Shown one piece after another: positions 1 through 29,964 of a stretch of DNA of 64,000 nt. Location: positions 248,001-312,000 of the forward strand of contig PMSV01000008.1 in the NCBI GenBank assembly GCA_003168265.1, read 5' to 3'. Position numbers and translations under genes: made by a program. Under the pieces are notes generated by a model. The model made no database searches, was not told where the DNA came from, and saw only the letters and a list, made by a program, of their open reading frames with translations. This DNA is from Chitinophagaceae bacterium (lineage in GTDB: Bacteria > Bacteroidota > Bacteroidia > Chitinophagales > Chitinophagaceae). The stretch's first letter is position 1; each line of letters opens with the position of its first letter.

Positions 1-1
1 T

Positions 2-1046: not shown

Positions 1047-1613
1047 ATGAAAAAAATGTTCATCACCCTGCTTGTTTTCCCCCTCTGCATAAACGCCCAA
1101 TTTGCAAAATTCGACTCTACCATGAAAATGGGCAAGGTGGGGTACAGGGTGATCTGTATGAATAAAAATCTTGGGAAGAATATGCTAACGATCAAGCCGG
1201 AAGGCTTTGAAAAAGATGCCAGGGAATTGTCCTTCCAGATACCCGGCCGTGTAAAAGGGGCCGAGATAGACGACCTTAACGGAGACGGATACCCGGACGC
1301 AGTCATTTATGTTTATTCCGGCAGGAATTCGGAATTTGGAACCGCTTATTGTTTTGCCTCCCAGGAAAATAAGATGTATATCCCCATGATATTGCCTGAT
1401 ATTCTCCTGGATGGAAAATTCAAAGAGGGTTACAAGGGTTACGATGAGTTCCAATTGCTCGAAGGAAAGCTGATGAGGACCTTCCCCTTATATAAACCCG
1501 ACGATGCAGCCGATAAACCGAGCGGAGGCAAAAGAGTGATAATGTACAATTTGATAGGGGATGCTAATACCCGTTTTGAGTTTAAAGTGCTGCGATCCTA
1601 TATAATAAATTGA
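1047..1613 (+). CDS. Secreted protein, possibly a PliI-type lysozyme inhibitor
   Basis: This is a 188-residue protein with a clear signal peptide (MKKMFITLLVFPLCINAQ, cleavage probably after the AQ). The mature part contains DLNGDGYPD followed by VYVYSG-like strands, a 'GYKGYDEF' segment, an 'LMRTFPLYKP' segment and 'GGKRVIMYNL'. From memory this order matches Bacteroidota proteins named PliI-family inhibitors of I-type lysozyme, but I cannot run the comparison. DxNGDGxxD is also typical of FG-GAP/VCBS calcium-binding loops, so a generic beta-rich periplasmic protein is the alternative. The start is fixed by the signal peptide and an AT-rich leader. It converges on the lipoprotein gene at 1751-2212. 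Confidence 0.6.
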   Translation: MKKMFITLLVFPLCINAQFAKFDSTMKMGKVGYRVICMNKNLGKNMLTIKPEGFEKDARELSFQIPGRVKGAEIDDLNGDGYPDAVIYVYSGRNSEFGTAYCFASQENKMYIPMILPDILLDGKFKEGYKGYDEFQLLEGKLMRTFPLYKPDDAADKPSGGKRVIMYNLIGDANTRFEFKVLRSYIIN

Positions 1614-1750
1614 ATCGCAATTTCATTCATGTATGGACATCAGGGTATATTGCCGTTAAATGCAATCCGCTTGATTAAGATCGTCCAGGCAAGAAATGCA
1701 GGATGGACTTGAAATTAAATTCTATCTGACAAAGTAGAATGCCCGAACTT

Positions 1751-2212
1751 CTAATACACGGTAGCCAGGAATTCATATCTGTTTCCATTGCTAAACAGAA
1801 AATTCTGTGAAAAGCCGGTAACGTCGGTTGAGACCTTGCTAAAGATTGTAGAACCATTTTGGTTGATAATCAATTTGATGCTATAAGACTTGATAAAGGT
1901 TGTGTCTAACTGAATGATTGCGGAGAGACTATCTCCGTCCCGAAGTATCGAATTGGGAAACACGGTAGAATCCTGCAGGGGCAGAATGATGGGAGTGATC
2001 AGGCCTTCCCCTGAAGTGCCGCATAATTCATAGGAGGAGCGATAATTAACAATGCCAAGCGATGCAATATTGGCATTATCTGTCTGTATATCGAGCGAAC
2101 CGCTGGCAATGAGAGTAGTGGTAGGAGAGGAAGCGATGGTTGGTGCGGGTTCAAAACTGCTGTTCTTAACACAAGACGTAAGCAATACAATGCCTACTAA
2201 AATTTTTTTCAT
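1751..2212 (-). CDS. Small lipoprotein of unknown function
   Basis: I place the start at the ATG at 2212, because the residues that follow (MKKILVGIVLLTSCVKNSS) form a lipoprotein signal with lipobox LLTSC. An upstream in-frame ATG at 2239 would add nine charged or hydrophobic residues before the signal and is less likely. The mature chain, about 137 residues, begins with a Ser/Thr/Pro-rich linker (EPAPTIASSPTTT) as expected of a surface or periplasmic lipoprotein, and is otherwise beta-rich. It has no catalytic motif I can recognise. The gene stands alone, convergent with the possible lysozyme inhibitor gene and followed upstream by a non-coding stretch. Confidence 0.7.
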   Translation of the reverse strand: MKKILVGIVLLTSCVKNSSFEPAPTIASSPTTTLIASGSLDIQTDNANIASLGIVNYRSSYELCGTSGEGLITPIILPLQDSTVFPNSILRDGDSLSAIIQLDTTFIKSYSIKLIINQNGSTIFSKVSTDVTGFSQNFLFSNGNRYEFLATVY

Positions 2213-14566: not shown

Positions 14567-15493
14567 TCAGGAAAGGTTACCCAGGCTATAGAGTATTCGC
14601 TGGTAGGTTTCTTCCCCGCTCAGGATCTGAGGTACGAATTCCTTTCCAATCACTTTTTCGAACAGTTCTATATATCGTTTGCTGATCACCGTTACCCAAT
14701 CTTCATTCATTTCCGGTACAGTTTGCCCCTCCTTTCCCATAAAGCCGTTTTGAATGAGCCATTCCCGGACGAATTCTTTACTCAATTGCTTTTGCTTTTC
14801 CCCTTTTTCCTGTCTTTCCCCGAAACCTTCTGCATAAAAATACCTGGACGAATCGGGGGTATGGATCTCATCCATCAGCAGGACTTTCTCTCCTAATTTC
14901 CCGAATTCATACTTGGTATCTACCAGGATCAATCCCTGTCTTTCGGCTATCTGTTTTCCTCTTTCAAAGAGGGATAAGGTATATTTTTCGAGCATTTCAT
15001 AATCTTTTTCTGATACGATCCCTCTTTTAATTATTTCTTCCCTGGTGATATCCTCGTCATGACCGGCTTCTGCCTTTGTGGAGGGAGTTATAATGGGCGA
15101 GGGAAAATAATCATTTTCCTTCATGCCCGAAGGAAGCGCAACACCACAGAGTTGCCTTTTCCCGCTGTTGTAAGTGCGCCATGCGTGACCTGTCAGGTTC
15201 CCGCGAATAACCATTTCAACACGCAGAGGAATGCATTTTTTACCAAGAGCAACATTCGGTGCAGGGATATCAAGCAGCCAATTTGGACAGATATCAGTTG
15301 TAGCGTGTAGCATAAATGCTGCGATCTGATTTAAGACCTGTCCTTTATAGGGTATGGGCCTGGGCAAAATAACATCGAATGCGGAAATCCTATCCGTAGC
15401 GATCATGACCAGCCATTTGTCGGATATAGTATACACATCGCGCACTTTACCGCGATAAAATTGAGTTTGATTCGGAAATTGAAGAGTTTTCAT
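14567..15493 (-). CDS. purC: Phosphoribosylaminoimidazole-succinocarboxamide synthase
   Basis: SAICAR synthase joins CAIR with aspartate using ATP in purine biosynthesis, in the cytoplasm. The 308 residues carry the family signatures: KVRDVY near the N-terminus, [11 protein letters not shown], the glycine-rich [34 protein letters not shown] and [12 protein letters not shown]. The length fits the longer, single-domain form common in Bacteroidota and similar to yeast Ade1, rather than the roughly 240-residue Escherichia coli form. No other pur gene is adjacent. A conserved 67-nt element lies 20 bases upstream of the start and is shared with two other genes of the window. Confidence 0.96.
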
Positions 15494-15512
15494 CTGCTCA
15501 TCTTTAGTTTTT

Positions 15513-15581
15513 TCTGTTGCCAGATGGAACCTCGCTTATTCATTACCCTGATATGGGAAATTTCTTTATGCTTGGTTTCAT
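15513..15581 (-). promoter_or_regulatory. Conserved leader element, copy A (upstream of purC)
   Basis: Read on the minus strand, this copy has ATGAAACC, 42 variable bases, GGTTCC, and then the small hairpin TCTG-GCAA-CAGA (a GNRA-type loop), which ends 20 bases before the purC ATG. Two other copies in the window have the same order and spacing. It is probably transcribed as 5' UTR or is a promoter-proximal binding site. I know of no named motif that fits. Confidence 0.55.
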
Positions 15582-15767
15582 ATAAAATGAATTGCTCTGA
15601 ATTCATAATCCCGGCGAGCACTCGAAATTACATGTGAGCGATGAATTTGCAGGTGATCATAATTCACGAAATATCAACAAACTATTATGTTCATGTGAAA
15701 ATAAAATTTCTGTTTCCTAGTTAGAATCATTATTTTACTTTCTGAAACAACAACGAAAATTTGCTTT

Positions 15768-18647
15768 ATGAGAAAATACACACATGTGCTATTTATCAGT
15801 GCAGCTATGGCACTGCCTCTTGCCCTTTTAGCCCAAACAATCACCATCCGCGGAAATGTCAGGAATTCATCTACCAGGGAATCCGTGCCTGCCGTTTCGG
15901 TCATATTAAAGGGGACCAAAAACGGAACTTTTACCGATGATAAAGGTAATTTCAGATTAACCACCAACAAACAACCCCCCTTTGTCCTGGTCATCAGTTC
16001 CATAGGATATGAATCGCAGGAAATTAGCTATTCGGGTGGCAATGAGCCTCTAAAGATCGAATTCAAATCCACCTCTTCCCTGGGTACGGAAATAGTTGTT
16101 TCTGCCAGCCGAATTCCTGAAAGGATTTTGGAGTCTCCGGTATCAGTTGACCGGATAGGAGCGGCCGATATTCGCAATTCGGCAAACCCCAATTATTATG
16201 ATGCCTTGGGTTCACTCAATGGCGTCGATGTAACCAATTCCAGCCTCACTTTCACAACTATTACGACCCGCGGTTTTAACGGGAGCGGAAACCCGCGTTT
16301 CAATCAGTTCGTAGATGGAATGGACAACCAGGCTCCGGGCCTTAACTTTTCAGTCGCAGCCATTGTAGGTCTGACCGATCTGGATGTGGACAATATGGAA
16401 TTGCTTTCGGGTGCATCTTCTGCTCTTTATGGTTCTGGTGGAATGAATGGAACCCTTCTCATGACCAGTAAAGACCCGTTTAAATACCAGGGAGTCAGCT
16501 TCGAAATCAAACAGGGTGTGATGCACCTTGGCGGTGGCAACGGCAAAGCCGACCCCATTTCCGCATCGCCCTACTATGATTGGTCCCTGCGTTGGGCCCA
16601 GAAAATAGGCGATAAATTTGCTTTCAAAATAAGCGGTGAATATACCCAGGCAAAAGACTGGGTGGCCAATGACAGCAGCGATTATACCGGTGCAGGCACC
16701 GGATCTGGTAACCATGTCATCCCAGGAGGAACCAGGGCCAACGATCCCAATTACAACGGAGTAAATGTATATGGAGACGAAACCAGTGAAAACCTTCTGA
16801 ATATCACTAATGAGATCCTGGCCTATGCCACCCAACAATATGTTGCCGGTTATGAAGCCCAAAGCGGTGGGGCTCCGCCTAGTCAGTCTCAGATCAACAG
16901 TTATTTGTCAACCAACCCGCAAACCTCTCCTTTTTATAATGGCAAGGCAGCCGGAATCATTCCCAACCAGAACGTCTCCCGAACAGGCTATCCTGAATAC
17001 CAGATCATTGACAATACGACCATCAGTTTCAAGGTTTTGGGAGGAGTTTATTATAAACTGACCCCCAATACCCAAATTTCTTTGACCGGTAATTGGGGTA
17101 CTGGAAATACCGTTTATACAGGTGCAGACCGTTATTCCCTGAAGGATTTCAGGATGGGTCAATACAAATTAGAGATCAGGAACGACAATTGGTTTTTTCG
17201 TGCATATACCACACAGGAAAGGGCGGGAAAATCCTTTGATGCAACAGTTACGACCCGGCTTTTCGATGAGGCCTGGGGCCCCAGCAGCACATGGTACCCT
17301 GAATTCATAGGCGCCTATTTGCAGGCCGTTTCAGCAGGGGCGCCTTCAGCGACAGCTTTCAATATAGCCAGGGCTTATGCCGACAAAAACCGTCCCATTG
17401 CCGGTTCGGCCCAGTTCACCCATCTCTTCGATTCAGTGGCTTCCCTGCCCATCCCACAGGGAGGATTGCTACTGGACAAAAGCAATCTCTATCAAACGGA
17501 AGGCCAGTATAATTTCACGGATCTCGTGAAAGTGATGGAAGTCCTGGTCGGCGCTACATGGAGGCAGTACGTGCTTAATTCAGACGGCACCCTTTTCTCC
17601 GACAGCGCGGGTCCCCGCCATACCAACGAATACGGTGCGTATGTTCAGATCGCGAAGAAATTTTTCAATTCCCTCAAGATCACGGCTTCCGGAAGATTTG
17701 ACAAGAACCAGAATTTCGAAGGGAAATTCACGCCCCGCGTTTCGGCGGTCTGGACCTTTGCCGAAGGCCAGAATATCCGGGCTTCCTATCAGAATGCCTA
17801 TCGCTTTCCATCTAACCAGAACCAGTGGATCAACCTGAATACTGGAGCCGGAATTCTGATCGGAGGGCTGCCAGAGCTTAGGGACCTCTATCATTTCGGT
17901 CCCAATAACAATACCAAACCTGTTTATACCGAAAACAGCGTACAGGCCTATGGAACATCGGTAGCCATGGGATCGCCCAATCCAGCTTTATTGCAACAAC
18001 AGCAATTCGGAACCTTTAAGCCGGAATCGGCCAATTCCTATGAATTGGGCTATAAGGGACTTTTCAACAAGAGGATACTGATCGATCTCTATGGTTACTA
18101 TGCAGAGTACCAGAATTTTCTTGGCAGGGTGAATGTCCTTCAGCCGATATCCGGAAATCCAACGACTGATTTCCTCGATGGCAATTACCAGGCCTATTCT
18201 GTATCCGTGAACAGCCCTTATAAGATTGGCACCTACGGTTGGGGGTTGAAAGTGGACTACCTGATGGAACATAATTTTGTGATCGGGTTTAATCTATCGT
18301 CAGATATGATCCATAATTCGGATACCACTTTTGCGACTTATTGGAATACTCCAAAATACCGGGCCAATGTCTCTTTTGCCAATACCGGTTTCGGGTATCA
18401 GAAGCGCTATGGATACAAGATCTCCTGGAGATGGCAGGACAGTTATTTTACACAGGCTGATTTCATGCAAGGACCCGTGAACGCATTCAGCACCATCGAT
18501 GCACAGGTAAACTATAAATTTCTCGATATACATTCCATGCTGAAACTCGGAGCGACCAATCTGCTGAATCATTATTATTATTCACAGTTCGGTGATCCGG
18601 CGATCGGAGGGTTGTACTATATCAGCTTTGCATATAATGTATTCTGA
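15768..18647 (+). CDS. TonB-dependent outer-membrane receptor
   Basis: A 959-residue protein with a signal peptide (MRKYTHVLFISAAMALPLALLAQ). An N-terminal carboxypeptidase-regulatory-like beta domain follows (about 25-105, with GTKNGTFTDDKGNF), then a candidate TonB box (EIVVSASR), a plug (about 120-235, with GFNGSGNPRFNQFVDGMDNQ and LLSGASSALYGSGGMNG) and a long beta-barrel ending in the aromatic C-terminus YNVF. It should import a ligand across the outer membrane with energy from TonB. No SusD-like partner is adjacent, so a role in uptake of a siderophore, vitamin or other small ligand is as likely as glycan import. It converges on ychF. Confidence 0.93.
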   Translation: MRKYTHVLFISAAMALPLALLAQTITIRGNVRNSSTRESVPAVSVILKGTKNGTFTDDKGNFRLTTNKQPPFVLVISSIGYESQEISYSGGNEPLKIEFKSTSSLGTEIVVSASRIPERILESPVSVDRIGAADIRNSANPNYYDALGSLNGVDVTNSSLTFTTITTRGFNGSGNPRFNQFVDGMDNQAPGLNFSVAAIVGLTDLDVDNMELLSGASSALYGSGGMNGTLLMTSKDPFKYQGVSFEIKQGVMHLGGGNGKADPISASPYYDWSLRWAQKIGDKFAFKISGEYTQAKDWVANDSSDYTGAGTGSGNHVIPGGTRANDPNYNGVNVYGDETSENLLNITNEILAYATQQYVAGYEAQSGGAPPSQSQINSYLSTNPQTSPFYNGKAAGIIPNQNVSRTGYPEYQIIDNTTISFKVLGGVYYKLTPNTQISLTGNWGTGNTVYTGADRYSLKDFRMGQYKLEIRNDNWFFRAYTTQERAGKSFDATVTTRLFDEAWGPSSTWYPEFIGAYLQAVSAGAPSATAFNIARAYADKNRPIAGSAQFTHLFDSVASLPIPQGGLLLDKSNLYQTEGQYNFTDLVKVMEVLVGATWRQYVLNSDGTLFSDSAGPRHTNEYGAYVQIAKKFFNSLKITASGRFDKNQNFEGKFTPRVSAVWTFAEGQNIRASYQNAYRFPSNQNQWINLNTGAGILIGGLPELRDLYHFGPNNNTKPVYTENSVQAYGTSVAMGSPNPALLQQQQFGTFKPESANSYELGYKGLFNKRILIDLYGYYAEYQNFLGRVNVLQPISGNPTTDFLDGNYQAYSVSVNSPYKIGTYGWGLKVDYLMEHNFVIGFNLSSDMIHNSDTTFATYWNTPKYRANVSFANTGFGYQKRYGYKISWRWQDSYFTQADFMQGPVNAFSTIDAQVNYKFLDIHSMLKLGATNLLNHYYYSQFGDPAIGGLYYISFAYNVF

Positions 18648-18679
18648 ATCTGATTTGATTTTTCTATGGTGGATATTTT

Positions 18680-19780
18680 TCAGACATTGAAACGGAAATG
18701 CATGACATCCCCGTCCCTGACGACATATTCTTTGCCCTCGATACGAAGCCTGCCGTTCTCGCGGCAGGCTGCTTCAGAACCATATTGAATGAAATCATTG
18801 TAGCTGATGACCTCGGCCTTGATAAAGCCCTTTTCAAAATCAGTATGTATGACGGCAGCAGCCTGAGGGGCCTTCCAGCCTTCATGAATGGTCCAGGCCC
18901 TGACTTCCTGAACTCCCGCAGTGAAATAGGTCTGCAGATTGAGTAGTTTATACGCGGAGCGAATGAGCTTATTCAAGGCAGGTTCCTTCATTTTATATTC
19001 TTCCATAAACATTTGCCTGTCTTCCTGGTTTTCCATCTCCCCGATCTGGGCTTCAATGGAATTGTTCATTACGATCACCGCTGCGTCTTCTCCTGAAACA
19101 GCCTGGATCAGGGCTTCAGAGAATTTATTTCCGGTATGCATGCTGCCCTCATCCACATTTGCAACATAAAGAACCGGCTTTTCGGTTAGCAGGAAAAGAT
19201 CGCCTACAGCGTTTTTTTCTTCCTTTCCCAATTTGAGGGAGCGTATATTCATACCCTTCTCTAAGTGCTCCCTGCATTTTTTCAACACTTCAAATTCCGT
19301 CTTCGCTTTGAGATCCCCTGATTTTGCGAGTTTCTCCGTCCTGGCGTATTTTTTGTCGATACTTTCCAGGTCCTTCAATTGTAATTCAGTATCGATGATC
19401 TCCTTATCGGAAACCGGGTGTATGGGCCCCTCCTCTCTTAGAATATTCTCATCCTCAAAACAGCGGATCACATGCACGATTGCATCCACTTCCCGGATAT
19501 TGGCAAGAAATTTATTTCCGAGCCCTTCCCCTTTACTGGCCCCTCTGACCAGGCCTGCAATATCAACTATTTCTATCTGAGTCGGTACGACCCTTTGAGG
19601 GATGACAAGTTCTGCCAATTTATCGAGCCGCTCGTCAGGTACATTCACGAGGCCCACGTTGGGCTCTATGGTGCAAAAACGATAATTGCTGGCCTGCGCC
19701 TTTGCGCTGTTACTGACCGCATTGAATAGAGTTGATTTTCCCACATTAGGCAGACCTACAATCCCTGCTTGCAATGACAT
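18680..19780 (-). CDS. ychF: Redox-regulated ATPase YchF (Obg-like)
   Basis: A 366-residue P-loop protein of the Obg family. It has the P-loop GLPNVGKST, switch II DIAGLVRGASKGEGLGNKFL, and NVDE in place of the guanine-specific NKxD, which explains the preference for ATP over GTP in this family. There is a coiled-coil insertion around 130-200 and a C-terminal TGS domain (about 283-365) ending VVRDGDVMHFRFNV. YchF binds ribosomes and is linked to oxidative stress and leaderless mRNA translation in other bacteria. The length matches the family (about 363). Confidence 0.96.
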   Translation of the reverse strand: MSLQAGIVGLPNVGKSTLFNAVSNSAKAQASNYRFCTIEPNVGLVNVPDERLDKLAELVIPQRVVPTQIEIVDIAGLVRGASKGEGLGNKFLANIREVDAIVHVIRCFEDENILREEGPIHPVSDKEIIDTELQLKDLESIDKKYARTEKLAKSGDLKAKTEFEVLKKCREHLEKGMNIRSLKLGKEEKNAVGDLFLLTEKPVLYVANVDEGSMHTGNKFSEALIQAVSGEDAAVIVMNNSIEAQIGEMENQEDRQMFMEEYKMKEPALNKLIRSAYKLLNLQTYFTAGVQEVRAWTIHEGWKAPQAAAVIHTDFEKGFIKAEVISYNDFIQYGSEAACRENGRLRIEGKEYVVRDGDVMHFRFNV

Positions 19781-19858
19781 AGATATCTGTTTTTTTTGAG
19801 CAGCAAATCTAAGGAAAACAAATGCTGTTTTTAGAATTCGATATAGTAGTTTTAGGGC

Positions 19859-21094
19859 ATGGCAATGAATATCATCTGGATTGCTTTTTTTCTGATCGCC
19901 TTCGTGGTGGCCATTATCAAGCTGGTCGCATTCGGGGATACGACCATATTTAAGAGCATGATGGACGGGGTATTCGATGCGGCCGGAACCGGTGTGCAGA
20001 TCTCAATTGGACTGATCGGAGTCATGTCGCTGTTCCTGGGATTTATGAATATCGGCGAAAGGGCAGGAGCGGTCAGATTCCTCTCCAGGATCGTGGGCCC
20101 TTTCTTTAATAAATTATTTCCGGAAGTGCCAAAAAACCATCCTGCGATCGGGCATATGATGATGAATTTCTCGGCAAACCTTCTGAACCTGGATAATGCC
20201 GCTACTCCTTTTGGACTCAAGACCATGCAAAGTTTGCAGGAATTGAATCCGGACAAGGAAACGGCTTCCAATGCCCAGATCATGTTCATGGTCCTGCATG
20301 CTTCGGGTCTGACTCTGATCCCGATCAGCGTCATCGCTCAGCGGGCCATTATGAAATCAACGGACCCCGCTCTCATTTTTATACCTTGCATGATCGCAAC
20401 TTTTGCTGCCACAGTCACGGGACTTGCAATAGTTGCAATCCGACAAAGGATCAATTTATTCAATCCGGTGGTTATGGCATGGATTGGCGCAATCAGTCTG
20501 CTGATTGGATTGCTGATCTATTACTTCAGGACCCATCCGGACAGGATCGATATTTTTTCAAAAGTGGTGAGCAATGGGCTCATCCTGCTCTTGTTCATTT
20601 CATTTATTATTGGCGGATTGATCAGGAAGATCAATGTATATGAATCATTCATTGATGGGGCTAAACAGGGTTTTGATGTGGCTATTAAGATCATCCCCTT
20701 CCTGATTGGGATCCTGGTTGCCATCAGCGTACTCAGAAACTGCGGTGTATTCGATTATATCATTCAGGGGTTTACCTGGTTTTTCGGGCATCTCGGCATC
20801 AATACGGATTTCGTCAGGGCCCTTCCCACTGCCCTGATGAGGCCTCTTAGTGGCAGCGCCTCCCGGGCCATGATGATCGACACGATGAAGCAATATGGAC
20901 CCGACTCCTTCCCCGCCCTTGTTTCCGGTGTGATGCAGGGATCATCCGATACTACTTTTTATATTGTTGCACTCTATTTCGGATCGGTGGGCATCAAAAA
21001 AACACGCTATGCCGTGCCGGCAGCGCTTCTCGCCGACCTGGCGGGAGTAACGACGGCTATCGTCATTTCCTATCTGTTTTTCCACAGGGGATGA
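19859..21094 (+). CDS. SpmA-SpmB fusion, nucleoside-recognition (Gate) membrane protein
   Basis: A 411-residue polytopic protein in which the SpmA-like half (about 1-200) and the SpmB-like half (about 205-411) are fused. Typical features are NLLNLDNAATPFGLKTMQ in the first half and RPLSGSASRAMM followed by VSGVMQGSSDTTFYI in the second, each flanked by hydrophobic helices. The two genes are separate in spore formers. In Bacteroidota the fused form is common and cannot serve sporulation. Its transport or gating substrate is unknown. The start may be the ATG at 19865 (MNIIWIAFF) rather than 19859. Confidence 0.9.
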   Translation: MAMNIIWIAFFLIAFVVAIIKLVAFGDTTIFKSMMDGVFDAAGTGVQISIGLIGVMSLFLGFMNIGERAGAVRFLSRIVGPFFNKLFPEVPKNHPAIGHMMMNFSANLLNLDNAATPFGLKTMQSLQELNPDKETASNAQIMFMVLHASGLTLIPISVIAQRAIMKSTDPALIFIPCMIATFAATVTGLAIVAIRQRINLFNPVVMAWIGAISLLIGLLIYYFRTHPDRIDIFSKVVSNGLILLLFISFIIGGLIRKINVYESFIDGAKQGFDVAIKIIPFLIGILVAISVLRNCGVFDYIIQGFTWFFGHLGINTDFVRALPTALMRPLSGSASRAMMIDTMKQYGPDSFPALVSGVMQGSSDTTFYIVALYFGSVGIKKTRYAVPAALLADLAGVTTAIVISYLFFHRG

Positions 21095-21100
21095 GCAAAT

Positions 21101-21562
21101 TCATTTGAAAATAAATCTTACAGTGATAGCGAAAGCGTCCGGCACAAAATTGATTGCAGGCAGGATATCGAGTTCGGGTTTCCAGTCAAGGGAAAGATTG
21201 ATGGGAGCTTTCTGAAATTTATAATCGAGTCCAACGACCCCTGTAGGGCCCACATAAGGATCTCCGTTTTCGAAACCCAGGTAAGCTCCGCCTCCATAGA
21301 ACCATGTGAAATCCGGTACGGCCCCAATGATCTGGTGGACTTCAAATAATCCCCCGATACCGAAGCGCGTTGGGCCAAAAGACAGTAATCCCTCAACGGC
21401 ATCCTGCCCGTTTATAAAATATTTCACGCTGATCGAATTGCTGAGTGTCGGGGTCGCCGTACTTAGCCTAATGCCCATGGCGAATTTATAATCTTGGGAA
21501 AGAGCGATTTTTGAGATACCCATAGCGGTCAACAGCAGAAGGGTGCATACGGTCTTATTCAT
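21101..21562 (-). CDS. Small outer-membrane beta-barrel protein, unknown function
   Basis: The 153 residues start with a signal peptide (MNKTVCTLLLLTAMGISKIALSQ). Short amphipathic strands rich in Gly, Tyr and Phe follow, ending in the aromatic C-terminus VRFIFK, as in eight-stranded barrels of the OmpX/PorT kind. I do not recognise a specific family. The gene ends 6 bases from the stop of the SpmAB gene (convergent). The 67-nt leader element copy B lies 20 bases in front of its ATG. Confidence 0.75.
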   Translation of the reverse strand: MNKTVCTLLLLTAMGISKIALSQDYKFAMGIRLSTATPTLSNSISVKYFINGQDAVEGLLSFGPTRFGIGGLFEVHQIIGAVPDFTWFYGGGAYLGFENGDPYVGPTGVVGLDYKFQKAPINLSLDWKPELDILPAINFVPDAFAITVRFIFK

Positions 21563-21581
21563 CAGATTATTTTTAGTTTTA

Positions 21582-21650
21582 TCTGTTGGCGAGAAGGAAC
21601 CTTAGGTGAACACTGCCCGTTTAAGCAGAATTGCTCATGGCCGGTTTCAT
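21582..21650 (-). promoter_or_regulatory. Conserved leader element, copy B (upstream of the small barrel gene)
   Basis: On the minus strand it reads ATGAAACC, a variable interior, GGTTCC, and a small TCT...AGA hairpin (with one fewer pair than in the other copies) that ends 20 bases before the start codon. The distance between the two hexamers is 47, against 48 in the other two copies. The variable interior contains its own CTGC/GCAG hairpin. Confidence 0.5.
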
Positions 21651-21748
21651 AAATGCTTTTAATCTGTTGGAACGAAAATAAGTATAAAACCTTGAGTGGG
21701 TTATGTTAGAAATTTCTTAATGTTTAGGAAAGTGGGCTGTTGGTAACC

Positions 21749-23884
21749 TCATTGACCGAAGAGCTCATATTTTGTTTTGGGACGTTTGTCATCCAGCCAT
21801 TTGAAGTTCTTCAATCGCATTTCATCGATATTGACTTTTTTAATGGGATACATAGTGCCTTCGGCCTCATTGCGAAGAATGACCTTATTCAGTTCTTTAT
21901 TGACAAAGAGCATATCGATTATATCCGCCTTGGATTGATTGACTCCGAAAAATGCCTTATTATCATCCTGCGCATAATAAATGCTTTCCGCATTGCCTTT
22001 CGCTCGCATATGGTCGATCACTCCTTCTCTAAAATATCCATTGATTGTTTTTCCCTTGATCTGGTTGAAAAGGCCGTTGCCCAGTTTATTCACAGCCAGC
22101 CCGTTTTCAAATACGTAGAGCCTGTCTGATTTTTTGTTTTTTGTAAATAAATAGATTGTATCACCAGTGATCTGATTGCCATTGGCCCACACAATAGGAT
22201 CGGTGAAAAGCCTGAATACCGAATCTTTTCCGGAATAGAACATGCTGTCTGAAATGGCTTGCAGGGAATCGGAAAATATGCGTACATGGTGGTAGGCTTG
22301 CAGGAACCTGTCGGCACTGTCATTTGGGGAAACAGTCACAGTATAAATTCTTTTGGAGGTATCATTGTCCAGGCTGTCTTTTGTTTGCGGAGGCCTATGT
22401 GTGGCAGTATCAATTCCTGTTCCGGAATGATTGATGGGAAGATCGCCCTTCAGGGAATCCCTGGTAACTGTTGGGGATTTCAATGAATCAGACCCGGATG
22501 ATTTGTTACCAGCAGCGTTCAACGAAGGGGGTGATTTTGAGGTGCTATCCTTCGGATTGGCATTGAGTTGTTTTTGGTCAGGATTGGCAGGCTTCTGATC
22601 CGTCTGGGAATTTGTCTTCTGTGCTTGTTTCCTGCCCCTTCCATGCCTGTGAGCCCCTTCCTCCAATATGGTTTTCTGTTCTGCGATCACTCCTTTTAGA
22701 AAAACAGAGTCCGGAATATCGATATGCGCCCTCATTGCACTATCCTGTATTCTCAGGTTTTCCTTCATAATGGCTTCATTAACGAGTGCGATCGAATCGG
22801 TGATCCGGATCCTGATCCCGAGCAGGCTGTCATTAAGCAGACTGTCCTGGATCCGTCTTTTTTCAGTCTTTACGCTATCATAATAACGGGCAATGGAATC
22901 AGCCCGGATCAGGTCGGAAAGCCTCCCTGAAAAAAGAGTATCTGCTGCAACATAGATTGAATCGTCTTCCTGTTTGAGGATCATCAACGGCTTCCCTGTA
23001 GCCAGAAAGGTCTTTGACTTCTTATCTGCAATCATATGTGTAGATAATACAGATACGCCCTGCGTTGAATCGACAAAAACCGCATTTCCATCTGCCACAC
23101 TGATGCCTGTGCTATCATCGAATTTTACGAAATCGCCCGTGATATTTTGTGAACCCTGTTTTATACGGGGCCTTCTTCCGAACTGCGCCCGGTGATTCTT
23201 CATGTCGTAATTTCCTTCCTTTGTATCAATGGTACTTCCGCTGCTATCCCGGATATGAGTTCTGGTAATGAATGTTGCATATTCGGATTGGGTGTTATAC
23301 AGCATGGAATCCGTGTTCAGGTCATAGGCGGGATCCTTCAATACTACATCATTTTTGAAATAAATATCTTTTGTATCCGCATAATAAACCCCTTCCTTAG
23401 AAGTCAGGACACTACCCTTATTGAATAATTTACCTCCATTGTTATAAGTGCCAATTTTTTGAGAGAGATCATAGTTCAGATCATCCGTATAAAGGATGGC
23501 CTTCCCATCCGTCATTTTTACATTCTTTTGAAAATACACATATTTTTTTGCCTCATAATATTTCATGTAATCGGAAAAGATATTGGTAGTGTCCGAATCA
23601 TTCATGTGTACATGGCCAAAGGCTTCAATGATGCTGTCCTTTTCATTACGAACCACGCTGTCCGCATAATATAAGGTGCTTCCCTTTTGAAGGAGCACGT
23701 TTCCGGACAGATACAGGAATTTAACTGAATCCTTTGTCTTTTCCCCCAATTTGTCGGTATGGCGGATATTCAGGGGCACCAGGGTATCTTTCTTTGGTCC
23801 GCTATTTTCCGGGTTGACGGTTTGCTGGGCATTGGATAGATGACTGCAGAAAAATAAATTTATAAGAAACAGGAGCCTCTTCAT
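21749..23884 (-). CDS. OstA-like (LptA-domain) periplasmic protein
   Basis: A 711-residue protein with signal peptide MKRLLFLINLFFCSHLSNAQ. Residues 45-330 are a run of OstA/LptA-type strands of the form 'GNVLLQKGSTLYYADS', 'GHVHMNDSDTTNIFSD' and 'KNVKMTDGKAILYTDDLNYD', which in the LPS transport pathway build the jelly-roll that passes LPS across the periplasm. Residues about 415-515 form a low-complexity Lys/Gln/Pro/Ser linker. Residues about 520-711 return to OstA-like strands. It is much longer than Escherichia coli LptA (185 residues). It shares an operon with an MlaD-type protein and lies near lptD, so a role in LPS delivery is likely. Confidence 0.85.
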   Translation of the reverse strand: MKRLLFLINLFFCSHLSNAQQTVNPENSGPKKDTLVPLNIRHTDKLGEKTKDSVKFLYLSGNVLLQKGSTLYYADSVVRNEKDSIIEAFGHVHMNDSDTTNIFSDYMKYYEAKKYVYFQKNVKMTDGKAILYTDDLNYDLSQKIGTYNNGGKLFNKGSVLTSKEGVYYADTKDIYFKNDVVLKDPAYDLNTDSMLYNTQSEYATFITRTHIRDSSGSTIDTKEGNYDMKNHRAQFGRRPRIKQGSQNITGDFVKFDDSTGISVADGNAVFVDSTQGVSVLSTHMIADKKSKTFLATGKPLMILKQEDDSIYVAADTLFSGRLSDLIRADSIARYYDSVKTEKRRIQDSLLNDSLLGIRIRITDSIALVNEAIMKENLRIQDSAMRAHIDIPDSVFLKGVIAEQKTILEEGAHRHGRGRKQAQKTNSQTDQKPANPDQKQLNANPKDSTSKSPPSLNAAGNKSSGSDSLKSPTVTRDSLKGDLPINHSGTGIDTATHRPPQTKDSLDNDTSKRIYTVTVSPNDSADRFLQAYHHVRIFSDSLQAISDSMFYSGKDSVFRLFTDPIVWANGNQITGDTIYLFTKNKKSDRLYVFENGLAVNKLGNGLFNQIKGKTINGYFREGVIDHMRAKGNAESIYYAQDDNKAFFGVNQSKADIIDMLFVNKELNKVILRNEAEGTMYPIKKVNIDEMRLKNFKWLDDKRPKTKYELFGQ

Positions 23885-23898
23885 CTTTTTGCTGGCTG

Positions 23899-24882
23899 TC
23901 AGGGTTTTGAAGTGGAATCGCCAAGAGGGCTCATAAGCGGGCCTGATTTATCCTTTTTCCCGAATACGCTGATATTCACATAACGCTTTGGGTGCATTCT
24001 CAGGTCATCCATCAATGTGTTCAGGCTTTTTGAAGTGCTTTCCAGGCTGAAGTATAATTTCTTATCATTAAGGAAAAGCCCCAGCGTGCCTGAACTGTTG
24101 TTCATTTTGTCGACGGCCTTATTCAATTCTGCCATGGTCGAATGGATGGATTCCACGGTTTCTTCGATTTTCGAATTGGATAATCGGGCGCTTGTTTTAT
24201 TGAGATTCGATAGAGTTTCAGTTATATTATCATTGTTTTTTGCAAGGTTCCTTGTGAATGAGTCCACATTTTTCAGGGATCTTGCAAGTATCCCGGTTTG
24301 GGTATTCAGGATAACCTGGAGGGATGCGGTAGATGCTGCCAGGTTGGCCAGAATGGAGCTGAAATTGTTTTTTGTCCTTGGATCGAAAAGGCTTCCAACC
24401 ACATGTATCAGGGAGTCCAGTGAATATAGTGTGCCATTCAACTGTCCGACAATTGGATTCAAATTGCTTTCGACCTGGGCCAATAATCCCGGCCTATCCC
24501 GGGTCAAAAGGGTATCCCCACTGGAGATATAATCCGTTCCCGTTCCCTTCTGTATAACGATCACCGGTGAATTGATCACGCTGGTTTGGATTTCGGCAAC
24601 CGAATTCTTGGGAATATGAATGTCTTTCTTAAGGTTAATTTCCACCACAATCCCATGCAAATCCTTGTCGGTTTCCGTGATCCCCGATACATTGCCGATC
24701 AGCAGTCCGTTGATCTTAACGGCATTGGACACTTCCACGCCTTCCACAGCATTAAAAACGGCGTATATTTTTTTGCTATGTTCAAATACCTTTTTCCCTT
24801 TGAGGAAATTGAAACCTAGAATTAGCAGGGTAATGGAAATGGCTGTGAGGGAACCAATTTTAGTTTCATTAGAAATTTTCAT
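23899..24882 (-). CDS. MlaD/MCE-domain lipid transport protein
   Basis: The 327 residues begin with a signal-anchor helix (about 12-28, IGSLTAISITLLILGFNFL). A single MCE domain follows (about 38-115, with VFNAVEGVEVSNAVKINGLLIGNV, then 'GIVVEINLKKDIHIPKNS' and 'GTDYISSGDTLLT'). A long helical C-terminal part (about 140-280) has heptad-like Leu/Asn spacing and probably forms a helical barrel or needle. MCE proteins bind and shuttle phospholipids between membranes. No MlaE/MlaF genes are in the window. The OstA-like gene starts 14 bases downstream, and the amidase lies upstream on the same strand. Confidence 0.9.
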   Translation of the reverse strand: MKISNETKIGSLTAISITLLILGFNFLKGKKVFEHSKKIYAVFNAVEGVEVSNAVKINGLLIGNVSGITETDKDLHGIVVEINLKKDIHIPKNSVAEIQTSVINSPVIVIQKGTGTDYISSGDTLLTRDRPGLLAQVESNLNPIVGQLNGTLYSLDSLIHVVGSLFDPRTKNNFSSILANLAASTASLQVILNTQTGILARSLKNVDSFTRNLAKNNDNITETLSNLNKTSARLSNSKIEETVESIHSTMAELNKAVDKMNNSSGTLGLFLNDKKLYFSLESTSKSLNTLMDDLRMHPKRYVNISVFGKKDKSGPLMSPLGDSTSKP

Positions 24883-25029
24883 TCACAGGCTGTTTAGTTG
24901 GAAAAGAGACAAATGAAAAATAAAATTCACGATAATAATTCAAACAGGCAACAAATGTAACAAAATTGTGAAGGCCGGCTTAGAAGGGCAAGTTAAAATA
25001 CCCTATAGCCGGGAATAACCTGCTGCATG

Positions 25030-26028
25030 TTATTTTTTTAAACTATCGCTTGTTTGTGCTGAGGAGGGCGCTTTGACGCCATCGAGGTATTGAATATACC
25101 TGCCAAGGGCATCAATGATGTTTTGGACGACCTCGTCCTGGCCTTTTTCGCTGTTCAGGTATTCTTCCTCCTCTTTATTGCTGAGGTATCCCGTTTCGAT
25201 CAGGACACTAGGCATGCCTGTGGCTTCCAGGACCTGGATCCCTTTATCACGCTGCTTTACTCCCCATACCTTCCTGCCGGCTTTTTCGAATTCATCCTCC
25301 ACCATGGTAGCAAATACTGCGCTTTTCTTGAAATATCGCTGTTCATAGATCTGGGCCATCATCTTTGCTTCAGGAGACTGGGTGTCCCAGTCCACCCGGT
25401 TCGCACTATCCGTACTGTCCGTAAATTCTTCCCCTCCGGTTTCTTCGTCCTTCCTGGTAATGGCATTGATTTTATCGGTCTCTTTCTGTGCCTTCCAGAT
25501 ATAGGTCGTAGCGCCGATTGTCGTATTTTTCACCCAATAGGACTCATAGATCGGGGCATTCACCCATTTCTTGTGTTTTTTGCTTCCCTTGCCCACATAT
25601 TCCAGTTTCTTTTTATGGCCGATTACCCTTTTGGCATAATATCCTCCTGGAGCAGGGGGCATGGCATCGCAATGTATGCTGATAAACAGATTTCCCCTGG
25701 ACTGATTGGCAATATTGGCCCTGTCATGCAGATCCTCTTTAAGTGTCGTGGCACCTTCCACTGAATTCTCAGTGGTTCGGGTATAAACAACCTTTATGTT
25801 CGGGAAGGTTTTATTTATCGCTTCTCCCAGTCTCAGGCCGATTTCCAGCGTGACATCCTCCTCTTTTGAGAATAGTCCTTTGGTACCGGTAAAAAACTTG
25901 TTATGGCCAGGGTCTATCACAACAGTATGGATGGGCTGCGCTAAATAGTGCCTCAATGTAATTGCACTATAAGGCTCAAAAGAACTTAGCGTTCCTATAA
26001 CAATTAGTAGCGCAGCCAATTTTTTCAT
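25030..26028 (-). CDS. N-acetylmuramoyl-L-alanine amidase (Amidase_3)
   Basis: I place the start at 26028 (MKKLAALLIVIGTLSSF, a signal peptide) rather than the ATG 39 bases upstream. The 332-residue protein has the Amidase_3 zinc-enzyme residues: the His in VVIDPGHN, the Glu in EEDVTLEIGLRL, the His in FISIHCDAM, and the catalytic Glu in SVLIETGYLSN. An inserted segment of about 100 residues between the second His and the last Glu is common in Bacteroidota members. It cleaves the bond between MurNAc and the stem peptide in the periplasm, for cell separation. It is divergent from lptD and upstream of mlaD and the OstA-like gene. Confidence 0.92.
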   Translation of the reverse strand: MKKLAALLIVIGTLSSFEPYSAITLRHYLAQPIHTVVIDPGHNKFFTGTKGLFSKEEDVTLEIGLRLGEAINKTFPNIKVVYTRTTENSVEGATTLKEDLHDRANIANQSRGNLFISIHCDAMPPAPGGYYAKRVIGHKKKLEYVGKGSKKHKKWVNAPIYESYWVKNTTIGATTYIWKAQKETDKINAITRKDEETGGEEFTDSTDSANRVDWDTQSPEAKMMAQIYEQRYFKKSAVFATMVEDEFEKAGRKVWGVKQRDKGIQVLEATGMPSVLIETGYLSNKEEEEYLNSEKGQDEVVQNIIDALGRYIQYLDGVKAPSSAQTSDSLKK

Positions 26029-26196
26029 CTTATTGTCTCTCGAATTTTGATGGTTAGTAATCTTCACAAATTCTTATGGTCTTATGGTCTAAATTTGTAA
26101 AATTGCAAAGAATTCAATTCCTGCTTCCAATTTGACTGCAGGTCCAAACAACATAAAACTGAATGAATCTGAAACCCTGTTTCTGCACAATCAAAT

Positions 26197-29130
26197 ATGA
26201 ATAACGGACGCAAAATTAATTCAAATTATTTTCCGCCGTTGGTTTTGACTGCGTTATTATTCATATTAACGCATTTCGTTAAGGCAAATTATTTCGGGCA
26301 TTTGAGATTTGGCAAAACCTTAACCTCGAATAAAGCCAATTTCCGTGGCAATATCCAAAAAAATTTTCGGAGTAATATTCAGAAAGAACTTAGCCAGAAC
26401 CTCAGCCAGAACTATAATCAGAACCTTAACCAAGACACTTCCCGACCCGATCTGAAAAAGGATATGGCCAGAAAAGGCAGCGATACCAGCCTTCCAATGC
26501 CGCTCATAACTCCCATGGATTCGGTAACCAGGAGTCATCTTAAGGACAGCCTGAGTAATAATATAAGCTTCAAAAACCCGATCCTCAAGGACGCCTACCT
26601 CAAAGACAGCAGCTATTACGACAGTTCGAACCTGCAATGGGATACCCTGGGGATCAAGCTCTCTAAGGACACCCTCGAAGCACCGATAAATTATGGCGCT
26701 TCAGATTCCATCGTAATGGAGATCCCGAGCAAGAAGATCATACTTTTCAATAAATCCACCGTAAAACAAAAAGACCTCAACCTCGAAGCCTACAGGATCG
26801 AATACGATCAGAAAAACGATGTATTGGTGGCGACCTATTCAACAGATACAGGCGGGAATATGGTCGGACGGCCCAAAATGGTTCAGACCGACAATACCAT
26901 CGAATCGGATACCATGGTCTATAATATCAAGTCGCAAAAGGGTATTACCAGGAACAGTTATACCCAATCCGGCGAAATGTATTTCTATGGAGAGCGGTTT
27001 AAGAAATTTGCTCCTGAACAGTTCTATGCCTATCACGGACGGTTCACAACCTGTAACCTTGATACCCCGCATTTCGCCTTCCGTGCAGCTAAAATGAAAG
27101 TTATCAAGGGGAAATTTGCCATTACGGGCCCTGCACATCCCGAATTCGAAGGGATACCCATACCCATTTATATTCCTTTCGGTTTTTTTCCTCTTGTTGA
27201 GGGAAGACATTCCGGGATACTTCCTCCTGAATTTACGGCAAGCGATCAATTCGGACTGGGCCTGACCCAGATGGGATATTACAAGGTGATCAACAACAAT
27301 TTTGATGTGACTTTCCGGGCAGACGTCTATTCCTATGGGGGCTGGGCACTTTACCTGGACCCGGAATACTATGTCCGTTATCACTATAAAGGGCGCCTCG
27401 ACATATCGATCCAGGACAGCCGGATACTGAATCCAACAGGAGTCGGCAACGAGGAGTTCTCGGATACCCGGCTCTTCAAAATTTCCTGGAGCCATACGGT
27501 AGATTCAAAAGCCAGGCCTGGTACGACATTCAGCGCCAGCGTAAACGTCCAATCAGAAAAATACAACCAGTTACAGATTAATAACCCGATCGCCAATTAT
27601 CAAAATCAGGTCGGGTCGAGCATCGCCTATTCCAAAACCTGGGACAATGGAAAAGTAAACCTGACCCTGAGCGGAAATCATAGCCAGAACAGCAACAATG
27701 GAACGATCTCCATCACCCTTCCCAATATGGGTTTTACGGTCACTACTCTTTATCCCTTTCAAAAACAGGAATCGATCGGAGCTCCGAAATGGTACGAAAA
27801 GCTGGGGATCGGCCTGACCACATCTTTGTCCAATCAGGCCACTTTATACGATTCCCTATTCAGTATAAAAAAGCTGATCGATACCTTTCAATGGGGGGTG
27901 CATCATAGCATTCCCATCACCCTGGCCCTCCCCCAAATGGGGCCTTTTCAGCTCGCCCCAGGCATGAGCTTCCAGGAGAACTGGTATCAAACCAAGTCCA
28001 TAGTCGCCTGGCAACCTGCACCGGATGGAGGTTATATGGATACGACCACGCAAAAAGGATTTTTCACTGAAAACAGCGCTTCTTTCAGCCTTGGGGTCAG
28101 CACGGCTATATTCGGCACATTCAATAAATTCGGGGAAAACAGCTCAATTCTGGGCATCAGGCATACAATCAGGCCCACTATCAGCATCAGCTATTCTCCG
28201 AACCTGGCGGGAAAGGATTATTATTGGGCACAAAATGACAGTTCCGGGCTAAGAGAAAGGCTGAATTATTTTCAGGGCAATGCGGCAGCGCCATTTCCGG
28301 AGGGCAAATTCGGAGGGATGTCCTTTGGTTTCGACAATACACTTGAGATGAAGGTCCGGTCCAAGACCGATACCTCCGATTCCGGGGTGAAAAAAATTAA
28401 ATTGCTGGATGGGTTCGGCTTTACGGGCAGCTATAACTACCTGGCTGATTCCAACCGGTTGTCACCGATCAGTTTTTATCTGCGCAGCACTCTGTTCGGA
28501 AAGATCAATATTACTGCCAGCAGTACCCTGGACCCCTACGTTAAAGACTCTCTCGGTAATGACATAAAGAATTTTTATGCCTGGGAACAAAAGGGGGGTT
28601 TTTCATTGGGTCATCTGACCCAGGGCACGCTCTCTTTGTCTACCAGTTTCAAAAGTGCGCCTAAGGACCCAAAGGCCGAAGACGAGAAAAAACAGGAACA
28701 ATCTCAGGAAATACCGCTCACGCCTGACGAGCAACAGTCCCAAATGAACTATATCGCCACTCATGCGGCGGAATTCGCCGATTTCAATGTGGATTGGTCC
28801 TTTACAATGGCATTTTCTCTGAACTATACCCATAGCATTAAAGCGGATTTCTCAGGTTACCAAACCATCATCAACTCGGGCCTGAACCTCAATGGAGACT
28901 TCAACCTGACACCAAAATGGAAACTGGGTATGGGGACTTATTATGATGTTAAAAATCTTAAAGTGAATTCCCTGACCATGTCCATTGCCAGGGATATGCA
29001 TTGCTGGCAGTTAGCCATCAACGTTATTCCCATCGGCATAACCCGGTCTTTTAATATCACCCTTAGCCCCAAGGCCGCTATTTTGAGAGATCTTCGCGTG
29101 AACCGTTCCCGGTTTTTCTATACGGAGTGA
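26197..29130 (+). CDS. lptD: LPS assembly outer-membrane protein LptD
   Basis: The 977-residue protein has an N-terminal hydrophobic signal (PLVLTALLFILTHFV) and an Asn/Gln-rich low-complexity stretch (about 45-85). An OstA-like N-terminal domain follows, with EAYRIEYDQKND and YNIKSQKGITRN. The Bacteroidota LptD block comes next (CNLDTPHFAFRAAKMKVI, then HPEFEGIPIPIYIPFGFFP and GRHSGILPPEF), and a long beta-barrel completes the chain. It forms the outer-membrane LPS translocon. Escherichia coli LptD is shorter (784 residues). The gene is divergent from the amidase, with about 170 bases between them, and its last 13 bases overlap the end of plsC on the other strand. Confidence 0.92.
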   Translation: MNNGRKINSNYFPPLVLTALLFILTHFVKANYFGHLRFGKTLTSNKANFRGNIQKNFRSNIQKELSQNLSQNYNQNLNQDTSRPDLKKDMARKGSDTSLPMPLITPMDSVTRSHLKDSLSNNISFKNPILKDAYLKDSSYYDSSNLQWDTLGIKLSKDTLEAPINYGASDSIVMEIPSKKIILFNKSTVKQKDLNLEAYRIEYDQKNDVLVATYSTDTGGNMVGRPKMVQTDNTIESDTMVYNIKSQKGITRNSYTQSGEMYFYGERFKKFAPEQFYAYHGRFTTCNLDTPHFAFRAAKMKVIKGKFAITGPAHPEFEGIPIPIYIPFGFFPLVEGRHSGILPPEFTASDQFGLGLTQMGYYKVINNNFDVTFRADVYSYGGWALYLDPEYYVRYHYKGRLDISIQDSRILNPTGVGNEEFSDTRLFKISWSHTVDSKARPGTTFSASVNVQSEKYNQLQINNPIANYQNQVGSSIAYSKTWDNGKVNLTLSGNHSQNSNNGTISITLPNMGFTVTTLYPFQKQESIGAPKWYEKLGIGLTTSLSNQATLYDSLFSIKKLIDTFQWGVHHSIPITLALPQMGPFQLAPGMSFQENWYQTKSIVAWQPAPDGGYMDTTTQKGFFTENSASFSLGVSTAIFGTFNKFGENSSILGIRHTIRPTISISYSPNLAGKDYYWAQNDSSGLRERLNYFQGNAAAPFPEGKFGGMSFGFDNTLEMKVRSKTDTSDSGVKKIKLLDGFGFTGSYNYLADSNRLSPISFYLRSTLFGKINITASSTLDPYVKDSLGNDIKNFYAWEQKGGFSLGHLTQGTLSLSTSFKSAPKDPKAEDEKKQEQSQEIPLTPDEQQSQMNYIATHAAEFADFNVDWSFTMAFSLNYTHSIKADFSGYQTIINSGLNLNGDFNLTPKWKLGMGTYYDVKNLKVNSLTMSIARDMHCWQLAINVIPIGITRSFNITLSPKAAILRDLRVNRSRFFYTE

Positions 29131-29870
29131 TTACGATGCTCCAGGTAATAGGACTTCATGATTTCAAACACTCTTTGTTTAAGGCTTTGAAGGTTGTCTG
29201 AAGGTAGGGGGGCTACCGGTTCCAGAAAATGCATGTATAGTTTTTGCGGGTAAAGACAGAAGGTTTTATCCGCAGGCATGGCTTTACGGGTATTGAAGAT
29301 AAGGGCGGGAATAATCTTTTTGCCTGTATCAATAGATAGTCGGAAAGCGCCGTCGTGGAATGGTTTCAAAGGTTCATCCGTGACATTGCGTGTACCTTCA
29401 GGATAAATGCACATATGCAGGCCCATATCCAACACTGCTTTCATCTTGCCATAACTTTCTTTTCTGCTCGCGTCACTTTTCCTGTCTACAAGAACGCTGC
29501 CCGTACTATAGATCATGCCGAAAAGGGGTATCCTGGATAATTCGATCTTCGCGATCGTCTTATTTCCGCCCGGAATAAAGGGATAGGAAACCGGAACGTC
29601 CATAAAAGCATTGTGATTGCAAACAACGATATAGGTCTCTTTATTGATGAAATTTTCCCTTCCCCTCACTTGTAAGGGGCAGCCTACCAGTCCAAGGAAT
29701 ACATTCATCCAGCCCCTGGCAAGTAGTATGAAACGTCGGGTCTTAAGGGGCTCTTTGCGGAAATAAGAAAAAGCGAGAAAGGGTATCAGGAAAAATAACA
29801 TAGTGACAAAAAAGGCGATAAGCCCCCATCCTGCCCAGATCCTTGCAAATATTTCCCTGAAAATTTTCAT
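29118..29870 (-). CDS. 1-acyl-sn-glycerol-3-phosphate acyltransferase (PlsC family)
   Basis: I place the start at 29870 (MKIFREIFARIWAGW); the frame continues 16 codons upstream, but that part is Lys/Asn-rich and lies in the leader. The 250-residue protein has a membrane helix near the N-terminus (about 12-35). The acyltransferase motifs are NHNAFMD (HX4D catalytic pair), VLVDRKS and YPEGTRN (EGTR), with ALIFNTRKAMP after them. It acylates lysophosphatidic acid to phosphatidic acid at the inner membrane. It converges on and overlaps lptD by 13 bases. Leader element copy C lies 25 bases before this start. Confidence 0.9.
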   Translation of the reverse strand: MKIFREIFARIWAGWGLIAFFVTMLFFLIPFLAFSYFRKEPLKTRRFILLARGWMNVFLGLVGCPLQVRGRENFINKETYIVVCNHNAFMDVPVSYPFIPGGNKTIAKIELSRIPLFGMIYSTGSVLVDRKSDASRKESYGKMKAVLDMGLHMCIYPEGTRNVTDEPLKPFHDGAFRLSIDTGKKIIPALIFNTRKAMPADKTFCLYPQKLYMHFLEPVAPLPSDNLQSLKQRVFEIMKSYYLEHRNHSV

Positions 29871-29894
29871 CTGGGTATTATATATTTTGTATTT

Positions 29895-29964
29895 TCTGTT
29901 TTTCAGATGGAACCTCACATATTGATTGACCTATTTGCAGTATAATGTGCATGCCTGGTTTCTT
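29895..29964 (-). promoter_or_regulatory. Conserved leader element, copy C (upstream of plsC)
   Basis: On the minus strand it has GAAACC, 42 variable bases, GGTTCC, and then the hairpin TCTG-AAAAA-CAGA, ending 25 bases before the ATG at 29870. The loop differs from that of copy A while the stem is kept, which favours an RNA structure. Flanking bases GCAT before and after GAAACC also recur. Confidence 0.52.

Follow-up and report, generated by a model that had tools for sequence, protein, structure and literature searches.

What is the short sequence that precedes three genes on the minus strand of a 64,000-nucleotide (nt) stretch of a Chitinophagaceae bacterium genome (contig PMSV01000008.1, positions 248,001 to 312,000; hereafter the window)? 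The initial annotation found it before purC, an acyltransferase gene, and the gene for a 153-amino-acid (aa) protein without a Pfam match; all three copies lie exactly where it placed them, and the genes are unrelated, as it said. It took the sequence for a leader of 67 to 68 nt, perhaps a regulatory 5' untranslated region or promoter element. We find that this leader is, very probably, a non-autonomous mobile element of the Bacteroidia, about 85 to 95 bases long, that inserts at ATGAA. The evidence comprises many dispersed copies, orthologous loci that lack the element, ATGAA on both of its sides, covariation of both of its stems, and a spread across the class. Insertion is well supported; the guide mechanism that we describe for it is a proposal.

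The unit is longer than first described. It is about 90 bases in size and is bounded by ATGAA on either side, running from a 5' ATGAAA (AAGAAA in the copy before the plsC-like acyltransferase gene) to the ATGAA of the gene start, with the pattern ATGAAACCGAGC ... GCGAGGTTCCATCTG ... CAG-ATGAAA. As judged from the edges of the copies, ATGAA is the segment common to both, because the sixth bases differ between left and right: genes starting with ATGAAT or ATGAAC have ATGAAA at the left edge where the left end is intact, and copies in the relatives G009 and G042 have ATGAAC there. Tandem copies have a single ATGAAA in common. The 5' ATG has been lost in some copies of this genome (AAG before plsC), and the 3' ATG is mostly retained. 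The interior, described initially as free, proved only partly so in the alignment of copies. The copies in the window are listed below, with scores from R1, a sequence-only model built from 26 copies, and with the state of P2, a stem at the 3' edge.

15488..15581, minus strand: copy before purC (SAICAR synthetase downstream); 5' ATGAAA at 15581-15576, gene-start ATGAAA at 15493-15488; R1 score, 72.0 bits
15521..15526, minus strand: left arm of P2 in the purC copy, CATCTG, read from the sequence; the stem covaries in alignments
15491..15496, minus strand: right arm of P2 in the purC copy, CAGATG, which holds the start codon; 6 of 6 pairs
21558..21650, minus strand: copy before the 153-aa protein without a Pfam match; R1 score, 61.6 bits; P2 decayed, 3 of 6 pairs
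29865..29964, minus strand: copy before the plsC-like acyltransferase; R1 score, 66.3 bits; 5' ATG decayed to AAG; P2 intact, 6 of 6 pairs

The gene at the left edge of the window (P0001, window 1-991, plus strand) is preceded by a further copy just outside it (contig 247845-247938).

Copies are numerous in this genome. The pattern GAAACC-N38..45-GGTTCC matches 35 times in its 4.30 Mb, compared with 5 times for a reversed control. A genome-wide search with R1 gave 91 places at E ≤ 1 and 86 copies at E ≤ 0.01, the three in the window included; 85 of the 86 were read, the remaining one lying at a contig end, outside the fetched stretches. An ATG stands at the 3' edge in 77 of the 85, followed by AA in 72 of these 77, and a frame of at least 100 aa opens at the edge in 61. 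The observation that the element points toward a downstream gene therefore extends to most copies; in 18 of the 85, no open reading frame (ORF) of 80 aa was found at or beside the edge. The window genes and 30 scanned proteins of this genome revealed no functional theme among the downstream genes. The 30 include SecD, a polyprenyl synthetase, nucleotidyl and cytidylyl transferases, NAD kinase, ATP synthase B, Lon, LytB, three short-chain dehydrogenases, and a sodium:dicarboxylate symporter.

Two loci were chosen for comparison with orthologs because the upstream gene of the operon runs into the element there. At the first, that of an MBL-fold gene, the stop of the upstream gene lies on the 5' ATGA and is followed by the element and then the gene; in the relatives G010, G045, and G013, the upstream gene continues directly into the gene's ATG. 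At the second, that of P0001, the upstream stop overlaps the 5' ATG, 87 nt ahead of the gene. The orthologs of P0001 place the upstream stop at -6 (G015), -4 (G021), -2 (G043, G047, G010, G041), +1 (G005, G008, G016, G003), or +7 (G014) relative to the gene start, and more distant rows place it at +1 (G046), +4 (G039), and +20 (a second G021 locus); no upstream frame was obtained for G042 and G040. We searched 50 loci, the 2 of this genome and 25 and 23 of relatives (in one of the 25, that of G019, the contig stops short of the gene start), with R1 and a second model, R2, at E ≤ 0.1. The element was detected in this genome's two loci only, and in none of the 48 from relatives. The element-free orthologs therefore point to an element that is dispersed and mobile rather than to a leader passed down by descent. 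Pairs of Chitinophaga species (L228/L267 and L261/L272) were seen to have a copy in common before what is apparently one and the same gene; once inserted, a copy can thus be passed on by inheritance.

The element contains two overlapping stems. The sequence at its centre, GGTT-C-CAT-CTG, is complementary both to an AACC close to the 5' end and to the CAG-ATG of the 3' end, and the central CAT belongs to both stems: in P1 it pairs with the 5' arm, and in P2, CATNNN pairs with N'N'N'ATG at the 3' edge. By complementarity, the CAT is able to pair with either ATG. When named genomes were scanned with an exact pattern, 76 stretches were obtained, of which eight outside the Bacteroidota were set aside as chance; 64 of the remaining 68 had a recognised 3' end, and their two variable P2 pairs were CG:CG in 29, TG:CA in 27, TC:GA in 1, and mismatched in 7. 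Removal of seven that were cut short or wrongly delimited, and addition of six G009/G042 copies, gave an alignment of 63 rows, A3. On A3, 98.7% of P2 cells are paired, compared with 17-33% when the stem is slid. The fifth pair is CG in 34 rows, UA in 28, and other in 1, and the sixth shows one change from GC to CG. Of 500 shuffles, none matched the paired cells and the covariation score, and 8 matched the two-sided pairs. Directly after the ATG, P1 has an A.C mismatch in 62 of the 63 rows.

A class-wide set of 38 rows, one of which is the opposite strand of another, was aligned by fitting to the model and so leans to it. Here, the fourth pair of P2 is CG in 17 rows, GC in 12, AU in 4, GU in 3, and UA in 1, and two rows have a CAC in place of the central CAT, with GTG and GTA at the 3' edge. 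P1 was examined in 36 of these rows, excluding the opposite-strand one and another that lacks a left arm; on average, 6.64 of 9 pairs form, compared with 4.74 (standard deviation, 0.24) with shuffled partners, and none of 1000 shuffles reached the observed value, although taking the left arm as the best of the ATGA[AC] candidates favours the observed pairing somewhat. As aligned, both P2 and P1 covary, P1 across the class. In the distant copies L372 and L375, no more than 23-28 bases separate the 5' arm from the central CAT, which suggests that the P1 loop is largely dispensable.

The claim of RNA structure in the initial annotation thus stands in part: the element is structured, through P1 and P2, but the local TCTG...CAGA hairpin on which the claim was based is not kept by compensation, each pair showing 13 to 26 changes on one side only and 0 to 1 on both sides in this genome. 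That hairpin was rejected as the structure of the element; it occurs in 0 of 63 copies of other genomes and is confined to this lineage. RNAalifold on a first alignment gave 4 pairs and no covariation.

Could the element nonetheless be a regulatory leader RNA acting in cis (riboswitch-like, or a translational operator) that masks the start codon within P2 and was kept before many genes for its usefulness? P2 contains the start codon and covaries, and the majority of copies precede genes. In the predicted folds, the pairs of P1 have a mean probability of 0.47 and those of P2 of 0.59, the z-score averages -2.0, and the start codon is unpaired with a mean probability of 0.15 over 63 copies. P2 pairing has decayed in many copies of this genome, however, and Rfam offers no match to the element: at the gathering score it gives only a tRNA in the window, in agreement with the initial annotation, which knew of no such riboswitch, and of three matches at E ≤ 1 in five loci, none falls on the element. 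As the main explanation, a leader was rejected in view of the element-free orthologs at two loci and the unrelated downstream genes, and we regard it as very unlikely. The same orthologs, the tandem copies with their common ATGAAA, and the 18 copies without an adjoining ORF also count against the initial reading as a regulatory element and against the argument made there that it is no copied repeat.

Several observations weigh against a mobile element. The copies of this genome are 14-46% divergent from their consensus, so many of them are old, and presence and absence were compared across the genomes of relatives, so present-day mobility is putative. P1 shows no covariation on A3, because the search pattern fixed those bases. 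Within this genome, each P2 pair is formed in 51 to 63 of 67-68 copies, with 0 to 2 two-sided compared with 6 to 16 one-sided changes per pair (three two-sided changes in total). Pairing there shows no clear fall with divergence (Spearman, -0.08; p, 0.49), a comparison that does not distinguish upkeep of the pairing by the host from upkeep by movement. The opposite strand folds about equally well, so folding does not tell the strand. Finally, searches for Y1 transposases and reverse transcriptases gave no mobilising enzyme.

One candidate for such an enzyme is a TnpA_REP transposase (Y1, HUH), perhaps of the Bacteroidetes subclass 2.6, which would move the unit as it does repetitive extragenic palindromic (REP) elements. 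PMC6006769 describes subclass 2.6 as mostly found in Bacteroidetes, with atypical secondary structures on its flanks that also recur in other parts of the genome, which counts in favour of this candidate; some of those structures may be the present element. A Y1 transposase is present in Agaribacillus, where a copy at locus L290 (809-867, minus strand) lies about 550 bases from one such Y1 gene (1417-1968, plus strand), which has NHIH and YIHNNP motifs. Weak Y1 matches, about 200 aa long, turned up in several copy-bearing relatives of the genus, which is probably Puia, yet also in others with few or no copies. A search with PF01797 at E ≤ 0.001 gave no match in C. japonensis, C. cymbidii, C. 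barathri, and C. chungangae, all of which bear copies, and in this genome the Y1 matches come from a single IS200-type gene, fragments of which lie at contig ends. Among the 34 Y1 loci searched, a clear copy lay near one (L290) and a weak copy (E, 0.09) near another. We therefore consider this explanation rather unlikely. Three contigs of this genome (L278, L279, and L280) end in the same first 249-252 bases of the IS200-type element, so the assembly breaks there. A reverse transcriptase was rejected as the mover; RVT_1 gave no match in this genome, G049, and G051, and matches are present in G048, G050, and G052.

We next consider where the mobile element sits relative to genes. Rough ORF calls assign the 288 ATGAA sites of the window to coding sequence (238), intergenic sequence (29), and the first 30 codons of an ORF (21). 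With the flanks joined, the frame of the ATG is open for at least 60 codons upstream in 5 of 77 copies of this genome, compared with 64 of 272 window ATGAA sites, and a stop-free frame of at least 150 codons spans 18 of the 77 compared with 210 of the 272. Loss of gene-breaking copies would give this scarcity within open frames, and we infer that selection removed copies within genes; a start-codon preference of insertion is likewise a possible source. The first residues after the 3' ATG often already belong to a Pfam domain, so this ATG is likely to be the natural start, and the genes are probably translated from this second ATG.

The same evidence bears on a translated insert like the Rickettsia palindromic elements, that is, a selfish in-frame N-terminal extension of about 28 residues. 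In the Puia relatives, 38 copies were read and 21 were delimited by script, of which 15 are 84 nt long. These 84-nt copies have 0.07 stops in one frame compared with 3.0 and 2.4 in the others, and their third codon positions are the most variable (0.87 bits compared with 0.53 and 0.57); the insert is open in 14 of the 15, with a stop in one, and several open frames continue into the gene. There, translation from the host's start may add 28 residues to the protein. Most copies of this genome are not open in this way: a stop lies within 16 codons in 28 of the 48 with a 5' ATG. Length modulo 3 is not kept either (residues 1/2/0, 22/17/4 in 43 copies of this genome; residues 0/1/2, 23/18/17 in 58 copies of named genomes), so the second ATG would have to initiate or be reached by re-initiation. 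A translated insert is thus very unlikely as the explanation of the element. The Rickettsia elements are alike in being small repeats in frame with unrelated genes, as the relevant part of PMC10969869 has it and as in the Puia relatives, but the present element lies at gene starts rather than being spread within genes, and its frames are closed in the copies of this genome and of named Chitinophaga.

How might a mobile element arrive cleanly at a start codon? Insertion at ATGAA would leave the old site as the 5' ATGAA, followed by the element and a second ATGAA, so the gene's own start and frame would be kept. In its active form the element is probably single-stranded and folded, as DNA or RNA, with both stems formed. 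Its central TTC-CAT-NNN segment would act as a guide whose flanks pair with both ends of the element, and the CAT, by pairing with either ATG, would align two sites for exchange. The guide and the 3' edge change together at every pair, even within the ATG: copy L357, which no long ORF follows, has a CAC guide and GTG at the edge. The fold may direct insertion. We tentatively suggest, as a possible reading, a site-specific mobile element of a new kind. A single internal guide would pair with the two ends of the element itself as well as with the ATG of the target, exchange of one ATG on the common CAT would insert or remove the element cleanly at start codons, and the mover would be an enzyme not yet linked to such elements.

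The initial expectation that the element is widespread in the group was borne out on the scale of the class: it was found in 27 of 159 Bacteroidia genomes and 19 of 104 genera sampled, this genome included. Within the genus, R1 gave a match in 18 of 33 genomes at E ≤ 0.1, with 86 copies in this genome and 1 to 15 in the others. Counted with R2 at E ≤ 0.001, with 150 candidates scored per genome, there are at least 87 copies in Chitinophaga japonensis, 76 in Agaribacillus aureus, 75 in this genome, 42 in C. cymbidii, and 1 in Sediminibacterium. Two copies in C. japonensis (L208 and L277) lose the 3' end and pass into another common sequence (...GAAGCGTTCACTGA...), apparently a repeat family of its own.

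No description of such an element was found in the open-access literature searched. It resembles REP elements and REPINs with their TnpA_REP (RAYT) in being small, multicopy, structured, noncoding, and probably moved in trans, and the idea of guide-to-site pairing is also used for IS200/IS605 ends, as set out in part of PMC6006769. It differs from REP elements in its two overlapping stems within a unit of about 90 nt, with ATGAA on both sides and usually at start codons, and the canonical REP 5' GT[AG]G foot given in that part of PMC6006769 is not in its A2 or A3 consensus. Like miniature inverted-repeat transposable elements, it is small, non-autonomous, and dispersed; unlike them, it has direct ATGAA ends without terminal inverted repeats, and its 5' arm pairs with the centre. 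An autonomous parent was not seen among the 85 copies of this genome and the 38 of relatives that were read, no dedicated search having been made. The TAACTGA repeats of Beggiatoaceae likewise lie directly upstream of the start codons of unrelated genes but, as portrayed in the pertinent section of PMC4679880, are tandem heptamers without a two-stem unit.

For annotation, the consequence is that open copies would be called as 28-residue extensions of the genes that follow. Any effect on gene expression would be a putative side effect of insertion. In this one genome, dozens of unrelated genes have their start codon covered by a 6-bp stem of the element. According to PMC8710568, Bacteroidia are reported to make no use of Shine-Dalgarno sequences, their starts being marked instead by low structure, A-3/A-6, and a scarcity of spare AUGs; each copy would therefore be a natural experiment on start selection.

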